Source: Phycisphaerae bacterium
GTDB lineage: Bacteria > Planctomycetota > Phycisphaerae > UBA1845 > Fen-1342
DNA: 39,800 nt
NCBI GenBank assembly: GCA_022072445.1
Contig: JAJVHV010000030.1
Span: forward strand, 108,922-148,721
Direction of reading: 5' to 3'
Position numbers and translations under genes: made by a program. Positions 4,769 to 25,163 of this stretch are shown here, piece by piece (the first letter of the stretch is position 1; each line of letters opens with the position of its first letter). The notes under the pieces are model-generated. The model did no database searches, was not told the DNA's origin, and saw only the letters and a list, made by a program, of their open reading frames with translations.

Positions 4769-7700
4769 ATGCGCAAACTCACAACAAAGTTGGGGTCAAT
4801 CGTGCTCCTGGCGACGTGTGTGTGCGTGTCCAGCGGGCAGGATGTCGCCGTCAGCATCGCCGTCGCGCCGGGCGGGCAGGTCGATCCGAAGAGCCTGGTC
4901 GTGACCGAATCGGTCGTCGAGATCAGCTCGGGCGACAAGATCACGTGGAACTCGTCGAAGGCCGGCGGGACGTACAGCGGCGGCGAGCCGGCGAGCGTGC
5001 GCGTGACGGTGCCGGCCGGGCCGTTCGGCGGGGCGTTCAACTCGGGCGTGGTGGCGATCGGCACGGCGATCGTCTCGCCGGCGGCCGTCGTCGCGGCCCG
5101 CGGCACGACGACGATTTACACGGTCGAAGTTCTGGACGGTGCCGGCAAGGTGATTCGGACCACGGGTGCGGCCGGCCCGGTACCTGCGACGCAGAACGCA
5201 CCGGCGATCCACGTGCGCGACCCGGCGCGGCGCGACGGGGTCATGAAGATCCGCGGGTTGTTCGTGCCGGGCGAGGACACCGGGAATGACGGTCTGGCGT
5301 GCGTCCTGAGCGCCGATCATCTCGATGCGGCTTTGTCGCCATTCGACACCAGCGGCAATTGGGCGGGCTCGACGAAGCTGGCGACGGCGCCCGGCCGGGC
5401 GAATCTTCAGCTCGAGATCAACCAGGCGTTCAAGAACGCGGACGACGATGACGTCTCGGTGTTCTTCATCGAGGCGCACGCCGGCCACAAGGCCAGCGAG
5501 ACCGTGCCGATCGACGAGGTCGGCGTCGGGCTGAACCAGGACACGTTTCAGAAGGTCGGGCCGGAGCGGAAGCTCGACAAGGACCTGGTGCGCGACGACG
5601 ACCTGGACGAGTTCTTCCGCGGCGTACGCGGGTTGAAAGTCATCATCCTTGATTCGTGCCATGCCGCCGGTCTCTTCGACGGTCGTCTTGATCTACCGCT
5701 GCCCCGGTCGATCATCATCGGCAGCTCGCAGCGCAACGAGACGTCGCTCGGCAAACGCTTCGACGCCGTGAGCCACTGGCACGGCGTATTCGCGGCCTAT
5801 CTGATCAAAGGGCTGACCGGTGACGGTGCCGGCATCGCGCGGGCCGACGCCTCGTCGGACAAGTCGGTGACGGTCAAAGAGTGGTTCGACTACGCGACGC
5901 CGAAGTCGGCCGCGCTGGCCAAGACGCACGGTAAGGAGCAGCACGCGGTCATGGACGATCGTCGCGCGCCGGCGGGCGCAAAGGCGGCGGACGTTGTCGT
6001 GTTCAAATACACGCAGGGCAGCTTGTATTCCCATCCGGACAACCCGCCCGGGCCGATGCCGACGCCGGCGGGCACGTGCGGCTGCGGTCTGGATTTCGGC
6101 GACGCGCCGCCGCCATTCCCCACATTGCTGAGCTTCAACGGTGCGCGGCACGCGGATTCGAGCCAGGAGTGGCTGGGGCCGGCGGGTGTTGAGAGCTGTG
6201 AGGCGGTGAGCCACGAGAGCGACGCGGTCGATGCTCATGACGAAGACGGCCGCTCCAACGTGATTCTGCGCCCGCAAGTCTGGCACGTGCGCCCGTTCTG
6301 CGCCGATCTGGACAAGCACGATGACGGTGTCACGTTCTACCCGCTGACCTACGTCGCCGGGATGATCGGAAGCATGGATGTCACGGTTGGGGTCGCGGAC
6401 GCGTCGGGTGGCCGCTATTCGGGCGGAAATGCGGACCAATCGCTCTTCTTGAACGCCTGGATCGACTGGAACACGAACGGCATCTGGGAAGAGGGGTCGG
6501 AGCACGTCATCGACGGATTGGTCGTTACGCCGAGCGGCGACAGCACGACCGTCTCGGCGAGCTTTCCGGTTCCGCCGATCGGGCCGGGCGATCTTTGGGC
6601 GCGCGTGCGGCTGGACTATGGCGAGAATGTCGGGCGGAACGACCCTGTGCCGGATTTCGAATCGGACGAGTCGTTGCTTCTGACAAGAGGGCTGGCGCAG
6701 TATGGCGAAGTCGAGGATTACTTCCTCGGCACCGACTTCGGCAATCTGCCCGATCCGAGCATCACGCCACCGTGCCTCGACTCGCATCCGCCGTTCGTGC
6801 CGCCATTCTTCCCGTATCCGACCGATCTTTCGAGCGACGGCGCGCGGCATCTGAACATGGGCTGCGAGGGTCTGGGCTGGAACGCGAGCCGCGAGCCGGA
6901 CGCGGACCAGGCCGCGAGCGACCAGGACATGGCCCCGAATCTGTCGCCCTGCCTGACGCATGATCATCCGCCCTATGGCGAGCATCTGACGCAGATGATC
7001 GGCGACGACGGATTCAACGATGGCGCGGTGGACGAGATTACGCTGGTGGAGTGCATTCCGGCGGATTGCGGCCCGGGCAGCACGCTGCACGTGCGGCACC
7101 GCATCCGATTCCGGGTGACAAGCACGATTTCGTCGCGCGGTTTCGGCGAGGATGGGCGCTACGACGCGTCGGACCCGGCCAAGCGGCTCTATTTCAACGC
7201 CTGGGTCGACATGGACACCGACGGCATCTTCGACGAGACGTACGCGATGGTGGTCGATCCGGAGACGTTCGGCGCCGACGGCCGCTATACCCAGGGCGAG
7301 TCTTTTGACGACCTCGGCCTCGACGGCGCGCCCGGCACCGGCGATGAGGGCGAAGGCGACGAACTCTACTCCTATCGCGACATGAACGGCAACGGCGCAC
7401 CCGACGTGGGCGAGCCCGGTGAGCCGTTTGACGACACCGCCGGAATCGATAGCGCCCTGCTCATCACACCGGAATACGACTGCTTTGGCGACATCTGCGC
7501 TGGCCTGCTGAATGAGCCGGTGTGGCGCTTCCGGCTGGACTACGGCGAAGACGTTGCGACGCCGGCCGGCGAGGCGATGTTCGGCGAGGTGGAAGATTAC
7601 TATCGCGGTTTCTTCTTCCTCGAAGATTCAGACGGCGACGGCGTGCCCGACATCGACGACAACAGCCCATACCTGGGGAATCCCGGTCAGGCCGACAGCG

Positions 7701-9373
7701 ACGGCGACGGTGTGGGCGACGCCAGCGACATGGACAATGACAACGACGGTTTCGAAGACGCGCTCGAACTGGCGCTGGGCTCCGATCCGCTATCGTCCGC
7801 GTCGACGCCGGAGCACTTCAGCGTCTCCGGCTCGTGCGGCGACGACCTCGACAACGATGGCGACGGCGCCGGCGACGCGAACGACAGCGGCTGCGACTCC
7901 GATGGCGACGGACACGGCGATCTGTTCGACAACTGCCCGGGCGTGCCGAATCCGTCGCAGGCCGATAGCGACGGCGACGGCGTCGGCGATGACTGCGACA
8001 TCTGCCCCGGCTACGACGATCATGCCGACGCCGACCATGACGGCACGCCCGACGGCTGCGAGCAGACCGACGTGTGTGCGGACTGGTGGGCGCTGGGCGA
8101 GGGCGTCGACGGCCCGGTGTTCGCGGTGCTCGCGGTCGATGAGGATGGCGCCGGTCCGCAGCCGCCCGTCCTGTATGTTGGCGGTTCATTCGCGCAGGCG
8201 GGTGGCCTCGTCGCGAATGGCATTGCCCGCTGGGATGGGAAGAACTGGTCGACGCTCGACAGCGGCATGGCGGGCGGAAGCTTCGGCGCGCCCTACGTCT
8301 TCGCGCTGGCGCGCTTCGACGATGACGGCGACGGGCCGAATCCGCCGGCGCTCTATGCGGCCGGCGAGTTCACCTCGGCCGGCGGCGTCGGTGCCAATCG
8401 CATCGCCCGCTGGGATGGCGTGACCTGGTCGGCACTGGACCTCGGCCTGAATGCCGACGCACGCGCGCTGGCGATCTTCGACGACGGCGCCGGCGAGGCG
8501 CTGTACGTCGGCGGCGCGTTCTCTGCCGCGGGCAGCACCCCCGCACTTGCCATCGCACGCTGGAAGGAAGGAACATGGTCGGACGTCGGCGGCGGCGTCA
8601 CTGGCGGCGAACACGGCACGCTGGTCTTCGCGCTGCTTCCGGCGGCCAGCGGTTCGGTCCTCTACGCGGCGGGCGACTTTACGTTCGCCGGCGGAACCAG
8701 CGCCGGCCGCATCGCCGCCTGGGACGGTAGCGGCTGGACCGAACTTGACGGCGGGACGAACGAGCGCGTTTTCTGCCTTGCCAATCACGACGATGGAACT
8801 GGCACGCAGCTCTATGCCGGCGGTGCGTTCACCGTCGCGGGCGACGCGGCCGCCGGCGGCATGGCCCGCTGGAACGGTGCGGAGTGGTCGGCGCTGCCCG
8901 GCGGCGACGCAGACGACTGGGTGCTCTCGCTCGCCAGCATCAACGACGCGACGCCCGCGGCGCTGCACGTTGGCGGGCGATTCACGACGGTCGGTGGCGC
9001 GGCGATACCGTTTGCCGCCCGCTGGCGACAGGGTGCGTGGAGCGGCTTCGGCGGCGGCGTGAACGCCACCGTCCGCGCGCAGGCCGTCGCCGCCACAACG
9101 ACCCACGCATGGCTCTACCTCGGCGGCGATTTCACCGCCGCGGGCGCTCTCGACGCGTCGCGGGTTGCCCGCTGGGGCTGCAATATTGGTGACATGAACT
9201 GCGACGGGCGTGTCGATGGCTTCGACATCGATGGCTTCGTTCTGCTGCTCACCGAGCCAGGGGACTACGACGACCAGTATCCCGGCTGCGACAGCCGCCA
9301 GGGTGACGTGAACGGCGATGGTTCGGTGAACGGGTTCGACGTTGATCCGTTTGTCGAGCTGCTGACCGGTTGA
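4769..9373 (+). CDS. Giant secreted caspase-like / GEVED / TSP3 / propeller / dockerin protein
   Basis: A 1534-residue exported multidomain protein. Signal peptide at about 1-23. Residues ~150-400 resemble a caspase-like (peptidase C14) domain: EAHAGHK gives the candidate catalytic His240, and ILDSCHAAG matches the DSCxxG signature with Cys297. Two regions with GEVED-type endings follow (LDYGEN...GEVEDYFLG near 610-655 and LDYGED...GEVEDYYRG near 920-947), each preceded by FNAW(I/V)D. Residues ~950-1100 hold Asp-rich TSP3 calcium-binding repeats (DSDGDGVPD, DNCPGVPNPSQ). From ~1106 to 1470 about seven blades of the type LYVGGxFxxAGG...IARWxGxxW suggest a beta-propeller. A dockerin-like pair ([26 protein letters not shown]) ends the protein. 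AGGTGG precedes the ATG. Substrate is unknown; proteolytic activity is inferred from motifs only. Confidence 0.85.
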   Translation: MRKLTTKLGSIVLLATCVCVSSGQDVAVSIAVAPGGQVDPKSLVVTESVVEISSGDKITWNSSKAGGTYSGGEPASVRVTVPAGPFGGAFNSGVVAIGTAIVSPAAVVAARGTTTIYTVEVLDGAGKVIRTTGAAGPVPATQNAPAIHVRDPARRDGVMKIRGLFVPGEDTGNDGLACVLSADHLDAALSPFDTSGNWAGSTKLATAPGRANLQLEINQAFKNADDDDVSVFFIEAHAGHKASETVPIDEVGVGLNQDTFQKVGPERKLDKDLVRDDDLDEFFRGVRGLKVIILDSCHAAGLFDGRLDLPLPRSIIIGSSQRNETSLGKRFDAVSHWHGVFAAYLIKGLTGDGAGIARADASSDKSVTVKEWFDYATPKSAALAKTHGKEQHAVMDDRRAPAGAKAADVVVFKYTQGSLYSHPDNPPGPMPTPAGTCGCGLDFGDAPPPFPTLLSFNGARHADSSQEWLGPAGVESCEAVSHESDAVDAHDEDGRSNVILRPQVWHVRPFCADLDKHDDGVTFYPLTYVAGMIGSMDVTVGVADASGGRYSGGNADQSLFLNAWIDWNTNGIWEEGSEHVIDGLVVTPSGDSTTVSASFPVPPIGPGDLWARVRLDYGENVGRNDPVPDFESDESLLLTRGLAQYGEVEDYFLGTDFGNLPDPSITPPCLDSHPPFVPPFFPYPTDLSSDGARHLNMGCEGLGWNASREPDADQAASDQDMAPNLSPCLTHDHPPYGEHLTQMIGDDGFNDGAVDEITLVECIPADCGPGSTLHVRHRIRFRVTSTISSRGFGEDGRYDASDPAKRLYFNAWVDMDTDGIFDETYAMVVDPETFGADGRYTQGESFDDLGLDGAPGTGDEGEGDELYSYRDMNGNGAPDVGEPGEPFDDTAGIDSALLITPEYDCFGDICAGLLNEPVWRFRLDYGEDVATPAGEAMFGEVEDYYRGFFFLEDSDGDGVPDIDDNSPYLGNPGQADSDGDGVGDASDMDNDNDGFEDALELALGSDPLSSASTPEHFSVSGSCGDDLDNDGDGAGDANDSGCDSDGDGHGDLFDNCPGVPNPSQADSDGDGVGDDCDICPGYDDHADADHDGTPDGCEQTDVCADWWALGEGVDGPVFAVLAVDEDGAGPQPPVLYVGGSFAQAGGLVANGIARWDGKNWSTLDSGMAGGSFGAPYVFALARFDDDGDGPNPPALYAAGEFTSAGGVGANRIARWDGVTWSALDLGLNADARALAIFDDGAGEALYVGGAFSAAGSTPALAIARWKEGTWSDVGGGVTGGEHGTLVFALLPAASGSVLYAAGDFTFAGGTSAGRIAAWDGSGWTELDGGTNERVFCLANHDDGTGTQLYAGGAFTVAGDAAAGGMARWNGAEWSALPGGDADDWVLSLASINDATPAALHVGGRFTTVGGAAIPFAARWRQGAWSGFGGGVNATVRAQAVAATTTHAWLYLGGDFTAAGALDASRVARWGCNIGDMNCDGRVDGFDIDGFVLLLTEPGDYDDQYPGCDSRQGDVNGDGSVNGFDVDPFVELLTG

Positions 9374-9569: not shown

Positions 9570-10694
9570 TCAGCACGAGCCGCCGCTCAGTGCCGCGACG
9601 AAGCCATCAACGTCGAAGCCGTTGACGCTGCCGTCGCCGTTCACGTCGCCGGCGCACGGCGAGCAGGGCGTTCCGCCGCCGGTCAGCAGATCGACCAGCG
9701 GGTCGATGTCGAAGCCGTTGATCGAGCCGTCGCAATTCGTGTCGCAGGGGATGCAGGCCACGGCCGGCTCGACGGCGACGTCGCCGGTCTCGTACTCGGG
9801 CAGGCCGGTTCCGCCATTGATGCCGCCGATGTTGCCGACGAAGACGCTCGGGCCACCGGGTGTGAATCTCCACAGCTCGGTGCGGAAGGTGGTGTTATTG
9901 AGCGCGCCGTGGTAGCCCTGGTTGGGCGCCAGCGTCGACCAATCGATGGTCGTTCCCTGGCTGAAGTTGGCGTCGAAGCCGATCGCGTGATCGAGCACCG
10001 GCGCGGTGCCGACAATGCGGTATTCGTTGTTGTTCACCAGGTCCATGTCGTACAGCGTGCCCGCCGAGCTGCAGCTCAGACCGACTTCGAGGAAGCCGTT
10101 GCTGCTCGCGTCCAGCGTCTTGACCAGCGTGGCGAAGCCCGTGACAAGGCTGATCTCGTAGATGCGCGTCGGGGCGGACGTGCTGAGGATGCCCAGGCCG
10201 TACATCTTGCCGTCGGCCGGGTTGTAGGCCAGGTCGGTGATGAAATAGCCGCCGCTCAGTCCACCGGCCCCGATGAACGTCGCCTGCCCGTTCAGCTTGT
10301 TGACCGAATAGAGCCCGCCGGCCGTCGTCTGCCGGAACGACCAGAGCTTTCCATCGGGCGTAAAATCGAGGCCGCCCATCAGTGTCCCGGCGACGCCCGA
10401 CCGTCCCAGCTCCGTAACCACCAACGGAGCCAGCGAGTCGAACGTGATCAGCGCGTCGCCCACGCCGCCGCGGTTGACCTCGGCCAGGTTGTCGTACGCG
10501 TAGATCGTCCGGCCGGCGCGCTGGCCGCCGCTCGGCGGAACGATGCTGTCCAGGTTCGTCGTGTCGTGCCGAAAGCCCGCTTCAGCGCAGGTCCCAACAC
10601 TGGGAATCGACGAGACCTCGTCCTTCTGGTCCGCGGCCAGAGCCAGCGGACCGAATGCGATTGTCGTTGCAACTACAAGTGTCCATCGGCGCAT
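9570..10694 (-). CDS. Secreted propeller-like protein with C-terminal dockerin
   Basis: A 374-residue exported protein. Signal peptide MRRWTLVVATTIAFGPLALA, then a repetitive beta-rich region (about 40-310) with motifs such as GGLDFTPDGKLW, ITDLAYNPADGKMYGL and YSVNKLNGQATFIG. This is the style of DUF4394-like or other beta-propeller surface proteins. The last ~60 residues are a dockerin-like pair ([18 protein letters not shown], then GDVNGDGSVNGFDVDGFV) with two CxxC-like cysteine pairs between. The start at 10694 is chosen for AGGAGA upstream and the signal peptide; the open frame extends to 10907 with no support. No catalytic motif was seen; a structural or binding role is likely. Its dockerin closely matches those of the proteins at 4769, 21843 and 36108. 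Confidence 0.82.
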   Translation of the reverse strand: MRRWTLVVATTIAFGPLALAADQKDEVSSIPSVGTCAEAGFRHDTTNLDSIVPPSGGQRAGRTIYAYDNLAEVNRGGVGDALITFDSLAPLVVTELGRSGVAGTLMGGLDFTPDGKLWSFRQTTAGGLYSVNKLNGQATFIGAGGLSGGYFITDLAYNPADGKMYGLGILSTSAPTRIYEISLVTGFATLVKTLDASSNGFLEVGLSCSSAGTLYDMDLVNNNEYRIVGTAPVLDHAIGFDANFSQGTTIDWSTLAPNQGYHGALNNTTFRTELWRFTPGGPSVFVGNIGGINGGTGLPEYETGDVAVEPAVACIPCDTNCDGSINGFDIDPLVDLLTGGGTPCSPCAGDVNGDGSVNGFDVDGFVAALSGGSC

Positions 10695-10817
10695 GCGTTT
10701 CTCCTGTGTGAGAGTGACTCCCCGGAGCGGAGTTTTGAAATGGGGACCGTTCGCGCCCGCCGAGTCGAAGCAGTCTTTCCCGCGAGACCGACTCGCATAT
10801 CTCCACCACCAACGTGG

Positions 10818-10847
10818 GTTGTAGCCGCAACCGCTTACGCCTGTCAA
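10818..10847 (-). promoter_or_regulatory. Candidate sigma-70 promoter for the dockerin gene
   Basis: On the minus strand a perfect -35 (TTGACA, plus coordinates 10842-10847) is followed 18 bp later by TACAAC (10818-10823), four of six matches to the -10 consensus. It lies about 124 nt upstream of the ATG at 10694, leaving a substantial 5' leader. Confidence 0.4.
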
Positions 10848-10925
10848 TGGAATTGTGGTGCGAATCCCGTCGGGTTGCCTGGGAGTGCGTCGCGTCGCGC
10901 CCGCCATCGCCGGCCGAGCCGGGCG

Positions 10926-21391: not shown

Positions 21392-21842
21392 GTGGATGGC
21401 TCCTGGCAGACCGCGCCCGGCCGTTTCGCCCGGCGGCGGCTCGCGGCGGATTATAGCCGGTACGCGCGAGACATGATTCGCCGTGAAGCGTGGGAGGTGG
21501 CGATGGTGCCGCCCGGTAAAAGTCATGCCCGAGCGACTCGATCTCTCGAACAGGTGATGGCGTGACGCGCACGCACGCGGCGGTGGCGGTGATTTCACTT
21601 TGGTGTTGGACATAGCGTCACCAACCGCGTGCCGCATGATGCGTTCACGGTCGAAAGCGAACGGACATCGCTGGCAAACTCAGCAGTTCACTACACGTCG
21701 CAGTGGGAGATTTCGCTTGAAACGCGAAGTCAGCCGCGGCATACTTGTATGCACTTGGGCGCAGTTGCGGCGACACACGTCTCGGTGCCGGAAACGCTGG
21801 CGGCACTCATCGCCGCGAAACTCTGAACTGCTGGGATCAGCC
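21392..21842. other. Divergent intergenic region, 451 bp
   Basis: No gene is visible here. It separates the nitroreductase gene (minus) from the metalloprotease gene (plus). Frames that stay open contain no recognisable motif. Local base composition is slightly more AT-rich than the surrounding coding DNA around 21590-21760. A candidate plus-strand promoter is at 21717-21745. Confidence 0.5.
21717..21745 (+). promoter_or_regulatory. Candidate sigma-70 promoter for the metalloprotease gene
   Basis: TTGAAA at 21717-21722 and CATACT at 21740-21745 are separated by 17 bp, a near-consensus vegetative promoter. The distance to the ATG at 21843 is 97 nt. Confidence 0.4.
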
Positions 21843-24800
21843 ATGAAACGACAAATTGCAATCGGTCTGTTGTGCGCTGTCGTCGCTGTCGTGCAGTCGG
21901 CAGGGGGTGATGGAGTACCGGAGCCACTAGGCAATCCGCACTATGTTCAGCCGCGAGCGATGGCGCGGATTTCGCCGCAGGGCGTGCTGACGTCGCCGTG
22001 GTATCAGCTCGGCGAGGGCGGCGTGGCACAGACGGTGTGCAACACGCTTCTGGCGTTCGACAACTTCGAGCCCGACGGCCTCGTGCCGGGATTCCCGACC
22101 GAGTGCGTGCCGCCGGACTGCGGTATGGGGAGCAGCCGCTGGTGGTTCGGAACGACCTACCTCGCTGGCACGTTCAGCGTGAACGACATGGTGATCGGCT
22201 GTTCGGAAGCGGACGGGGCGGCGGCCGAGCGGATCGAGTTCGCCTGGGCCTGGGGGCCGTGCTGGTCGACCGGCGGCATCGCGCCATGCCAGATCGCGGT
22301 CTACACGCTGGAGGATTGGAGCGACTGCGCGCCGGGCAGTCCGGCGTCGTACGGCGGGACGTACAGCGGGATCGTCTATGACTTTGGCACGCTGACCTGC
22401 AACCCGGGATTCTACTACGCGGCCGACATTACCGACTTGTGCGACTTCGGGCTGTTTCATCAGATGCCAGTGGACGGCACCGGCAGCTACGCGTTCATCC
22501 TGGGATCGCTCTCCAGCAGCGGCGGATTCGTGCTGGCCGAGGGCGCCCAGATGATGCTCTGGGGCACGAAGGTGGTTGACTTTCAGGGCCCCAGGCAGCT
22601 CGACGACGACAACCCGCGCGACGGCGCTCACAATCTCGACGATGTCAGCGACGGCGGCGAGTGCTACGACTATGCGTTCGGCGTCTGCCCCGATCCGCTC
22701 GGGTCGATGGTGGCGTTCTATGCGCAAGCCGGGCGGGAGGCGTGCAGCGATACATGCGGAGAGCCACCCTGCTGTTCGTGCGACGTGAACTGCGATGGCA
22801 GTGTGAACGGCTTTGACGTGTTCTCGCTCGTCGACCTGCTGATTGGGAACGGCCTTCCGTGCTCGCCATGTGCAGGTGACGCGAACGGCGATGGATCCGT
22901 GAACGGATTTGACGTGTTTCCGTTCGTGGAGATGCTCGTCGGCGGTTCCCCGTGCGATGGTTGCCCGGGAGCCGACCGAGATGGCGACGGTGTTGCGGAC
23001 GACGACGATAATTGCCCACGGGACTTCAATCCGGGTCAGGAAGACGGCGATGGCGACGGCGTCGGCGACGTTTGCGATAATTGCCCGGCCGTGCCCAACG
23101 CGTCTCAGGCCGATGGGGACGGAGACGGCGTCGGTGATGCATGTGACAACTGTGTGAGCACGCCGAACACGAACCAGCTTGATTCTGATTCGGATACCGT
23201 CGGCGATGCGTGCGACAACTGCCCCGACGACCCCAACCCCGATCAGGCGGACACGGATGGGGACGGCGATGGTAACGTCTGCGACAACTGTCCGAATCAG
23301 GCGAATGCCGACCAGGCCGATATCGATGGTGACGGAACCGGTGACGTGTGTGACGACGATCGTGATAACGACGGCGTTCCGAACGATCTCGACAACTGCC
23401 CGGACGATCCGAATGCGGATCAGAAGGATCAGGACGGGGATGGCGAGGGCGACGTTTGTGACGACGACAAAGATGGCGACGGAGTCGGCAACGACGAGGA
23501 CAACTGTCCGGACACAACGAACGCCGATCAAGCCGATCAGGACGGTGACGGCACCGGAAATGTATGCGATGACGATCGGGATGGTGACGGCATCGTGAAT
23601 TCGGTGGACAATTGTCCGGACTTGCATAACGCGACCCAGATTGACACGGACGGCGACGGGCAGGGCAACCCATGTGACGACGATCGTGATGGCGATGGAG
23701 TGACGAACTCGTCAGACAATTGTCCTGACACTTCGAATCCAGGACAGGCGGACAGCGACAACGACGGTGAGGGCGACGCCTGCGATGCCGACTCCGACAT
23801 CGACGCCGACGCCGTTCCCGACCAGAGCGACAACTGTCCGACGACCCCCAATCCCCTTCAGGAAGACGCCGACGGGGACGGAGTCGGCGATGCATGCGAT
23901 ACCGGAAATGACACAGACGGAGACGGGATCGACGACGCGGACGACAATTGTCCGACCACGCCCAACGCCAATCAGTCAGACATGGATGGTGACGGCGTCG
24001 GGGACGCGTGCGACTACATCAATGACACCGATGGGGATGGGATTCCTGACTCGGCGGACAACTGTCCCATGGCCCACAACACCGACCAATACGACACCGA
24101 CCACGACGGCGAGGGCGACGCATGCGATCCGGACACCGACCACGATCGCCTTTCTGACAATCTCGAGCAGAGTATTGGAACGAGTCCACTGGACGATGAT
24201 ACAGACAGAGATGGGCTTTCCGATGGCGATGAATTCCTCGGGACCGAGGGGGGCCTGAACCTGCCAGCATTTGGGGTAAGCCCACTCCACAAGGACTTGT
24301 TCATTGAGTGCGACTGGTTGACGCGCGATCCCGCCGACCCGGATCGGAACAGGCCGTCGTTTGGAGCGATTGTCGCCCTCTTTCTCGAGTTCTACCACGC
24401 GCCGGTGACGAACCCGGATGGTGCAACCGGAATCTTGCTGCACTTCGACGCCGGCGACCCGTTCTACGGCTCGGGTGGTAACTTCATCGGCATCGATGCA
24501 CTTCTCGAAATCAACGGCGACGTCGATGGGGAGTTTCTTGGGTACAAGGCAGCACACTTTGCCCAGAACCGAGCTGGCTACTTCCACTACCTCATTTCTT
24601 GCGATAAGTATGCCATTGGCGGCGTGCAAACAGGCTCCACGGGACTTGCGGAGATTCTCGGTAACGACTTCGTCGCTTCGGTCGGCCAGTACCGTGAATC
24701 GCCGAATTTTCGAGATTGGTGGCTCGAGAATACGATCCTGCACGAGTTGGGACACAACCTTGGCCTGCGCCACGGCGGAAACGTGAACCTGCCGAACTGG

Positions 24801-25163
24801 AAACCCAACTACAACTCAGTAATGAACTACCGCTTCCAGCTCGCGGGTGTCGACGCTGATTGCGATGGCGTGGGAGACATCGCAATGGCATACTCCCAGG
24901 GGCTGAGGCCGCAACTTGACGAGAATGCCGTAATCGACGCTGACGGAGTGTGCGGCCCCGGAAGTCCGATTGACTGGAACTCCGACGGCCGCACCAATGA
25001 TCCGCCATATCGATGGGATCTGAATATTGACATCAACAGCGGGGCCGGGGATGGCCTCTTTCAGGTGCTCACCGACCACGATGACTGGGCCGCGGCCAGC
25101 CTCCTCGGTGTTTTGCATTTCGATCGGCCCAGCGAAGTGGTCATCTGCTCGCCGCTTCCGTAG
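21843..25163 (+). CDS. Secreted zinc metalloprotease with TSP3 spacer and internal dockerin
   Basis: A 1106-residue exported protein. Signal peptide MKRQIAIGLLCAVVAVVQSAGG, then an N-terminal beta-rich domain to about 310 that I do not recognise. A dockerin-like pair lies at about 315-370 (NCDGSVNGFDVFSLVDLL and GDGSVNGFDVFPFVEML). It is followed by 12 DNCP-type TSP3 repeats to about 770, a calcium-binding Asp-rich spacer ending in a TDHDRLSDNLEQS-type module. The C-terminus (~820-1106) is a metzincin-type zinc protease: HELGHNLGLRH (His967, Glu968, His971, His977) and a Met-turn SVMNY around Met994. Usually the dockerin sits at a terminus; here it is near the N-terminal third. The start at 21843 is chosen for the signal peptide; the frame is open from 21600. 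Substrate unknown. Confidence 0.88.
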   Translation: MKRQIAIGLLCAVVAVVQSAGGDGVPEPLGNPHYVQPRAMARISPQGVLTSPWYQLGEGGVAQTVCNTLLAFDNFEPDGLVPGFPTECVPPDCGMGSSRWWFGTTYLAGTFSVNDMVIGCSEADGAAAERIEFAWAWGPCWSTGGIAPCQIAVYTLEDWSDCAPGSPASYGGTYSGIVYDFGTLTCNPGFYYAADITDLCDFGLFHQMPVDGTGSYAFILGSLSSSGGFVLAEGAQMMLWGTKVVDFQGPRQLDDDNPRDGAHNLDDVSDGGECYDYAFGVCPDPLGSMVAFYAQAGREACSDTCGEPPCCSCDVNCDGSVNGFDVFSLVDLLIGNGLPCSPCAGDANGDGSVNGFDVFPFVEMLVGGSPCDGCPGADRDGDGVADDDDNCPRDFNPGQEDGDGDGVGDVCDNCPAVPNASQADGDGDGVGDACDNCVSTPNTNQLDSDSDTVGDACDNCPDDPNPDQADTDGDGDGNVCDNCPNQANADQADIDGDGTGDVCDDDRDNDGVPNDLDNCPDDPNADQKDQDGDGEGDVCDDDKDGDGVGNDEDNCPDTTNADQADQDGDGTGNVCDDDRDGDGIVNSVDNCPDLHNATQIDTDGDGQGNPCDDDRDGDGVTNSSDNCPDTSNPGQADSDNDGEGDACDADSDIDADAVPDQSDNCPTTPNPLQEDADGDGVGDACDTGNDTDGDGIDDADDNCPTTPNANQSDMDGDGVGDACDYINDTDGDGIPDSADNCPMAHNTDQYDTDHDGEGDACDPDTDHDRLSDNLEQSIGTSPLDDDTDRDGLSDGDEFLGTEGGLNLPAFGVSPLHKDLFIECDWLTRDPADPDRNRPSFGAIVALFLEFYHAPVTNPDGATGILLHFDAGDPFYGSGGNFIGIDALLEINGDVDGEFLGYKAAHFAQNRAGYFHYLISCDKYAIGGVQTGSTGLAEILGNDFVASVGQYRESPNFRDWWLENTILHELGHNLGLRHGGNVNLPNWKPNYNSVMNYRFQLAGVDADCDGVGDIAMAYSQGLRPQLDENAVIDADGVCGPGSPIDWNSDGRTNDPPYRWDLNIDINSGAGDGLFQVLTDHDDWAAASLLGVLHFDRPSEVVICSPLP

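Follow-up and report, generated by a model that had tools for sequence, protein, structure and literature searches.

An open reading frame (ORF) at 4769–9373 (+) of the window, the 39,800-nucleotide stretch of planctomycete DNA analyzed here, raises the question of whether a caspase-like peptidase can be built into a protein that is sent out of the cell and held at its surface. The initial annotation had read this ORF as a fusion of a caspase-like domain with GEVED-like, TSP3, propeller, and dockerin modules.

Module layout of the 1534-residue protein

The ORF is a single uninterrupted frame, and its translation gives a probably exported multi-domain protein of 1534 amino acids. On the opposite strand, the one minus frame that was translated over 4769–9373 is broken by stops, and Pfam matched none of the three long minus-strand ORFs that lie beneath the gene in other frames (E ≤ 0.01). 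A signal-like N-terminus (residues about 1–23; 4769–4837) and a caspase-like domain (residues about 158–414; 5240–6010) are followed, all on the plus strand, by two GEVED domains, one at residues 561–653 (6449–6727; GEVEDY at residue 646) and one at residues about 790–945, with limits set by eye (7136–7603; GEVEDY at residue 939). PF20009 matched these two stretches with an E value of 3.5e-16 and 60.2 bits, which passes the Pfam cut-off of 24.4. The definition of GEVED comes from a study of fibrillar adhesins (PMC10952558). TSP3-type calcium repeats occupy residues about 953–1103 (7625–8077) and include seven DxDxDG motifs (residues 953–1087), with matches to TSP_3 (PF02412, E = 3.7e-5, 23.7 bits) and TSP3_bac (PF18884, E = 5.6e-5, 23.3 bits) just below the cut-off of 25. 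A Rax2/DUF5122-type beta-propeller then spans residues about 1110–1470, with limits set by eye (8096–9178); it carries (V/A)GGxF motifs at residues 1137, 1247, 1350, and 1401, and its PF12768 match over residues 1195–1328 (E = 3.8e-7, 30.2 bits) just passes the cut-off of 28.8. The protein ends in a dockerin-like tail (residues 1471–1534; 9179–9370), which was delimited by alignment with two other modules of the window and contains two Dx[DN]xDG calcium loops, an EF-hand pair. Dockerin_1 (PF00404) gave no match in the protein at E ≤ 1. The proposed fusion was thus borne out by Pfam for both GEVED domains and the propeller, whereas TSP3 stayed just under the cut-off and the dockerin had no match. 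The view that the fused modules are extracellular or adhesive was supported.

The N-terminus was evaluated using a home-made rule of hydropathy and charge. The best 10-residue mean hydropathy is 3.08 and is preceded by a charge of +3. As judged from the sequence, this basic n-region and hydrophobic core make export of the protein likely, as the annotation had also held.

The caspase-like domain and its active site

With residues 150–400 as the query, 61 genomes were searched, 26 of them other members of the same family, and these 26 gave no match at E ≤ 0.01; therefore, there is no close ortholog among them to show selection on the catalytic dyad. A class search with the domain gave matches in 11 of 397 genomes, including the own genome, and the relatives found were distant only. 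One class-search locus (L010) was dropped because it matched an oxidoreductase-like ORF by chance. A phylum search seeded with distant relatives hit 99 of the 392 genomes covered at E ≤ 1e-10, again including the own genome, and a scan of named genomes yielded 39 loci with a caspase-like domain, from Planctomycetota, Zipacnadia, WS1, archaea, Spirochaetota, Hydrogenedentota, Saprospiraceae, Clostridia-type bacteria, and Coriobacteriaceae/Atopobiaceae. Scanning genome contigs with the domain alone produced 60 pattern matches, none of which was confirmed. The resulting alignment holds 90 domain rows including the 1534-residue protein, with four own-genome loci and L010 left out; three genes are doubled in the locus set (L003/L049, L004/L046, and L012/L045), and these duplicates were removed for the final residue counts. 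Nine of ten relatives scanned with Pfam exceeded the C14 cut-off.

Twelve of the phylum-search relatives (L018–L023, L025, L026, L029, and L032–L034) form a distinct subgroup in which ACHG and AD(A/T/V)CH replace SGHG and LDSCH. A small caspase-like relative of the same class (L007, 1417–2169 (−) and downstream) has a signal-like start and a C-terminus that resembles a PEP-CTERM anchor.

Residues about 158–414 form, close to certainly, a caspase-like (clan CD) domain. Peptidase_C14 (PF00656) gave no match at E ≤ 1 in the protein and none in its genome, and NCBIfam gave only a weak caspase match over residues 268–352 (E = 0.18, 11.3 bits against a cut-off of 140). The assignment therefore rests on the relatives and on the fold. 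A profile built from the domains of 35 relatives, with the 1534-residue protein left out, scored that protein at 79.3 bits (E = 3.4e-23), with a mild circularity in that these relatives had originally been found via an alignment containing the protein. As a control, 1000 shuffles of the full-length protein gave no match at E ≤ 10 and 1000 shuffles of the domain gave three, of which the best scored 7.0 bits. In addition, the AlphaFold model of the domain, made from a 36-row alignment, had a mean pLDDT of 78.3 and a pTM of 0.81. Foldseek placed metacaspase 9 first for this model (E = 8.8e-10), followed by MALT1, GPI transamidase, legumain, and GSU0716. In the VIA fold comparison, metacaspase 4 came first (Z = 21.3, rmsd 3.0, 223 aligned residues) and legumain-type chains were tied with it (Z = 20.4, rmsd 3.2, 217 aligned residues); GPI transamidase was again among the matches. 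Gingipain (C25) was absent from the 50 matches listed by Foldseek and the 50 listed by VIA. When the 36-row profile was compared with solved chains at E ≤ 0.01, metacaspases (from 6.9e-24), GSU0716 (5.8e-16), and MALT1 (from 1.1e-4) were found, together with weak matches of short ends to calcium-binding proteins; the protein's single sequence found metacaspase-4 alone, at E = 0.14. The fold is thus that of clan CD, and by sequence the metacaspase side is favored. The structure predicted over the region first marked as caspase-like is accordingly a caspase-like one nearest to metacaspases, with legumain tied.

The initial annotation had named His240 and Cys297 as the candidate dyad. Cys297 (codon TGC, 5657–5659 (+); motif LDSC) held, but the putative catalytic His lies three residues away, at His237 (codon CAC, 5477–5479 (+); motif EAHAG). 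Both His237 and Cys297 stand at invariant columns in an alignment with nine relatives and likewise in one with three. In the full alignment, both columns are lettered in 81 of the 90 rows, duplicates and the 1534-residue protein included, and all of these have His and Cys; without the duplicates and the protein itself, 77 rows (73 loci) are lettered at both columns, again all with His and Cys. Counted singly, with duplicates out, position 237 is His in 81/81 and position 297 is Cys in 78/78 other lettered rows. By contrast, position 240 is His in 0/80, and His240 was rejected. Distant relatives thus keep the His and the Cys of the putative dyad His237/Cys297. His237 is followed by Ala and only then by Gly (HAG vs. 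HG). The same one-residue insertion was found in two relatives, L031 and L035, which read SGHAGN and LDACHSGG and have signal-like starts.

The substrate pocket of TbMCA2 is reported to consist of Cys92, Asp95, Ser156, and Asp211, and its calcium site of Asp173, Asp189, Asp190, and Asp220 (PMC4357240). These residues were mapped onto the 1534-residue protein by eye, from printed alignments and the residue list. Two pocket residues are retained, Cys178 and Asp295 (TbMCA2 Asp211), the latter two residues before Cys297. The position of TbMCA2 Asp95 is occupied by Ser181, whereas 61 of the 67 other lettered rows have Asp, and that of Ser156 by Glu235, where none of 81 other rows has Glu and the residue is mainly Ala or Ser. 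The dyad would argue for an enzyme and the pocket for a changed or lost specificity. Taken together, the differences of the active site from the known kind are small variations.

The metacaspase calcium site could be matched by eye to Asp258, Asp276, Asp277, and Asp304. Among the lettered rows of the relatives, Asp is present at these positions in 36/69, 26/75, 34/73, and 7/75, respectively. The calcium-site aspartates are thus not general among relatives, which makes calcium switching a guess. Activation by calcium, which had been suggested from TSP3 and the dockerin, is possible; the aspartates of the catalytic domain are a more direct argument for it than TSP3 or the tail, yet they are not general in relatives.

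Export among relatives and the C-terminal tail

Export had been thought exceptional for this class, on the view that most bacterial caspase-like enzymes are cytoplasmic. By the same loose, home-made rule, which was applied to the relatives anywhere upstream of the domain, a signal-like start was seen in 37 of the 41 caspase-like ORFs from named loci and in 25 of the 31 from the other loci, with L004/L046 and L012/L045 counted in both sets. An upstream stop was required, so that one 5′-cut ORF on named loci and ten on other loci were omitted. In comparison, 64 of 240 other ORFs of at least 300 aa had such starts within their first 200 residues; the gene status of these control ORFs was unchecked, which lowers their rate. 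Moreover, modules of exported-protein type lay above the Pfam cut-offs in five of the ten relatives scanned (L046, L047, L049, L050, and L053) and below them in L048 and L052.

According to a 2012 survey of prokaryotic caspase homologs, 529 of 671 sequences had no localization information, and the other 142 comprised 98 membrane, 30 extracellular, 7 membrane and extracellular, and 7 intracellular proteins (PMC3501461). Its membrane types mostly had one N-terminal helix, maybe a signal peptide, and roles at the surface or against neighboring cells were proposed (PMC3501461). The cytoplasmic view finds no backing in these figures, with 7 intracellular proteins among 142 localized (PMC3501461). 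The signal-like starts and modules of the relatives, together with the survey, indicate that export is not as unusual as first supposed. The claim of a novel surface-displayed protease is likewise weakened, since relatives carry the same kinds of modules, for example C14, GEVED, and dockerin in L046. Because similarly built exported caspase-like proteins occur in other microbes, the 1534-residue protein is a new example of a known thing. Judged by titles and opening lines of abstracts, no caspase–dockerin fusion was described in the papers listed and none dealt with secreted bacterial caspase-like C14 peptidases.

The annotation had also held that the enzyme is docked by its dockerin. Three double EF-hand modules lie in the window, at 9179–9370 (+), 9573–9767 (−), and 22770–22958. 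The ORF at 9570–10907 (−), which faces the caspase-like gene, combines DUF4394 with a Dockerin_1 tail above the cut-off (24.7 vs. 22.9). In the ORF at 21600–25163 (+), the dockerin-like module lies mid-protein and narrowly misses the Pfam cut-off (22.4 bits vs. 22.9). This ORF also has eleven TSP3 stretches and, in the direction of its C-terminal end, a weak match to M12-type metallopeptidases that shows HELGHNLGLRH.

Such tails are frequent in the own genome: 240–244 candidates came up initially and 150 of them were scored, all 150 matching at E ≤ 0.001 and 144 at 1e-15, so that both counts are lower bounds. Cohesin (PF00963) gave no match at E ≤ 1 in the own genome, which is 96.74% complete; it exceeded the cut-off in 12 of the 41 genomes covered by the relatives search. 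A weak cohesin-like part follows the caspase domain in L049 (E = 0.0057). The 137-residue piece of L049 holding this part had two own-genome matches, which by position fell in its Ig-like part, not in the cohesin-like one. A diverged cohesin may exist in the own genome. With at least 144 like tails and no cohesin found, docking via cohesin is unsupported, and the sequences suggest a widely shared C-terminal tag for retention or sorting that is not special to the caspase-like enzyme.

In eight other same-family genomes, tail matches at 1e-15 numbered 0, 1, 7, 0, 4, 0, 0, and 0. Three genomes with none at this level (G001, G004, and G006) had 89, at least 148, and at least 106 tails at E ≤ 0.001. 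Twenty own tails taken down the ranking were compared with eight from each of these three genomes; tails of this kind are those of the window and of L086–L129. Mean identity within a genome was 0.63 (own), 0.63, 0.70, and 0.73, and between genomes 0.44–0.51, a difference that is probably understated because the relatives' tails had been chosen as best matches to the own tail. The variable core mostly reads NGFD(I/V)D, (S/T)V(S/G)DI(N/G), DF(D/N)DID, or WRDID, by genome. A stop follows within five codons of the tail in 15 of 20 own sequences, the other five stretches ending too early, and in 23 of 24 from the relatives. Each of the four same-family genomes thus seems to have its own tail 'dialect', which looks like a homogenized, genome-specific tag. 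No description of genome-specific tails was found among the papers listed or in passages of PMC6461901, which is no proof of absence from print.

Proposed function and comparison with known systems

With modest confidence, we regard the 1534-residue protein as an exported, surface-held caspase-like cysteine peptidase of the metacaspase type, whose activity and substrate we infer. The signal-like N-terminus would take the protein out of the cytoplasm, the GEVED, TSP3, and propeller modules would serve as a stalk and offer surfaces for binding, and the double EF-hand at the C-terminus, common to many proteins of the organism, would probably act as a tag for retention or sorting. In the catalytic domain the dyad would consist of His237 and Cys297, and extracellular calcium might switch the enzyme on at Asp258, Asp276, Asp277, and Asp304, as aligned by eye. 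The enzyme may then cleave extracellular proteins, perhaps after basic residues; its targets could be the cell's own surface proteins, or proteins of neighbors or food.

The main alternative is that a surface adhesin has retained an inactive or barely active caspase fold as a module for binding. The altered pocket (Ser181 and Glu235), the extra residue after His, and the lack of close orthologs among the genomes searched would fit such a module, and dyad loss is common in the phylum, with Cys–His conservation given as 64% in Planctomycetes (PMC3501461). However, His, Cys, and the Asp two before Cys are all retained, and L031 and L035 share the insertion while keeping SGHAGN and LDACHSGG; we consider a dead fold unlikely.

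An improbable reading is that cohesin–dockerin contact docks the protease into an extracellular complex for protein degradation. One hypothetical complex of this sort is the 'planctosome', a model in which M12B and M14 peptidases of freshwater Planctomycetes are joined with dockerins, TSP3, and cohesins (PMC6461901). The double EF-hand tail, the ORF at 21600–25163 with its dockerin-like module, TSP3, and weak M12-type match, the cohesins in 12 of 41 relatives' genomes, and the weak cohesin-like part of L049 speak for it. Against it, the own genome has no PF00963 match at E ≤ 1, the matches to the L049 piece fall in its Ig-like part, and at least 144 tails of one kind are ill-suited to a single selective dock.

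We assign little probability to a legumain-like (C13) enzyme that processes or joins surface proteins. It draws on the VIA tie (Z = 20.4 vs. 21.3), on GPI transamidase among the fold matches, and on a weak, sub-cut-off C13 match in L053 (E = 0.0022) that lies beside a strong C14 match; yet the profile at E ≤ 0.01 finds only metacaspases, GSU0716, MALT1, and calcium-binding proteins matched by short ends, and the 1534-residue protein has no Pfam C13 match at E ≤ 1. A long shot, in our judgment, is a calcium-switched clan CD peptidase whose changed pocket (Glu235 and Ser181) would serve to mature the cell's own tail-bearing surface proteins, each genome with its specific tail dialect. That the caspase likeness arose by chance in an unrelated domain is very unlikely: the silent Pfam Peptidase_C14 model at E ≤ 1 and the single-sequence result of E = 0.14 for metacaspase-4 are outweighed by the profile E value of 3.4e-23 against shuffles and by the Foldseek and VIA fold matches.

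If active, the exported metacaspase-type peptidase favored here would add a divergent surface enzyme to the little-studied exported bacterial caspase homologs, and the altered pocket makes its specificity directly testable. The collected set, in which most complete ORFs have signal-like starts by a loose rule, argues against a mainly cytoplasmic view of bacterial caspase homologs. The tail, which differs by genome and recurs about 90–150 times or more per genome in the four sampled, poses the sharper question of how planctomycete surface proteins are held or sorted.

Compared with metacaspases and orthocaspases (C14 subfamily B), the protein shares the clan CD fold, the aligned His and Cys, the Asp two before Cys, and acidic residues for which a match to the calcium site can be drawn. 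Unlike them, it is missed by the Pfam C14 model, carries its domain inside a 1534-residue modular protein, and has a one-residue insertion after His as well as Ser181 and Glu235 in the substrate pocket. With type I dockerin (PF00404) it shares two C-terminal Dx[DN]xDG loops, but its tail lacks a Pfam match, occurs in at least 144 places, and has no cohesin found in the genome. L049 (Planctomycetota, RA.bin145, JAKLEZ010000062.1; the same gene as L003) resembles it in the signal-like N-terminus, the C14 domain, and, by eye, the propeller-like repeats, for which the DUF5122 match is weak; it differs in that the propeller precedes the caspase domain and in its Ig-like and weak cohesin-like parts and canonical motifs. 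L046 (Sedimentisphaerales, JAFGDN010000064.1; the same gene as L004) has canonical SGHG and LDACHSGG, 29% identity to the protein in the domain, and P-domain, galactose-binding-like, Ig-like, and carboxypeptidase-regulatory-like modules in place of TSP3 and the propeller; nevertheless, it likewise joins a signal-like N-terminus to C14, GEVED, and a C-terminal Dockerin_1, all three domains above their cut-offs.
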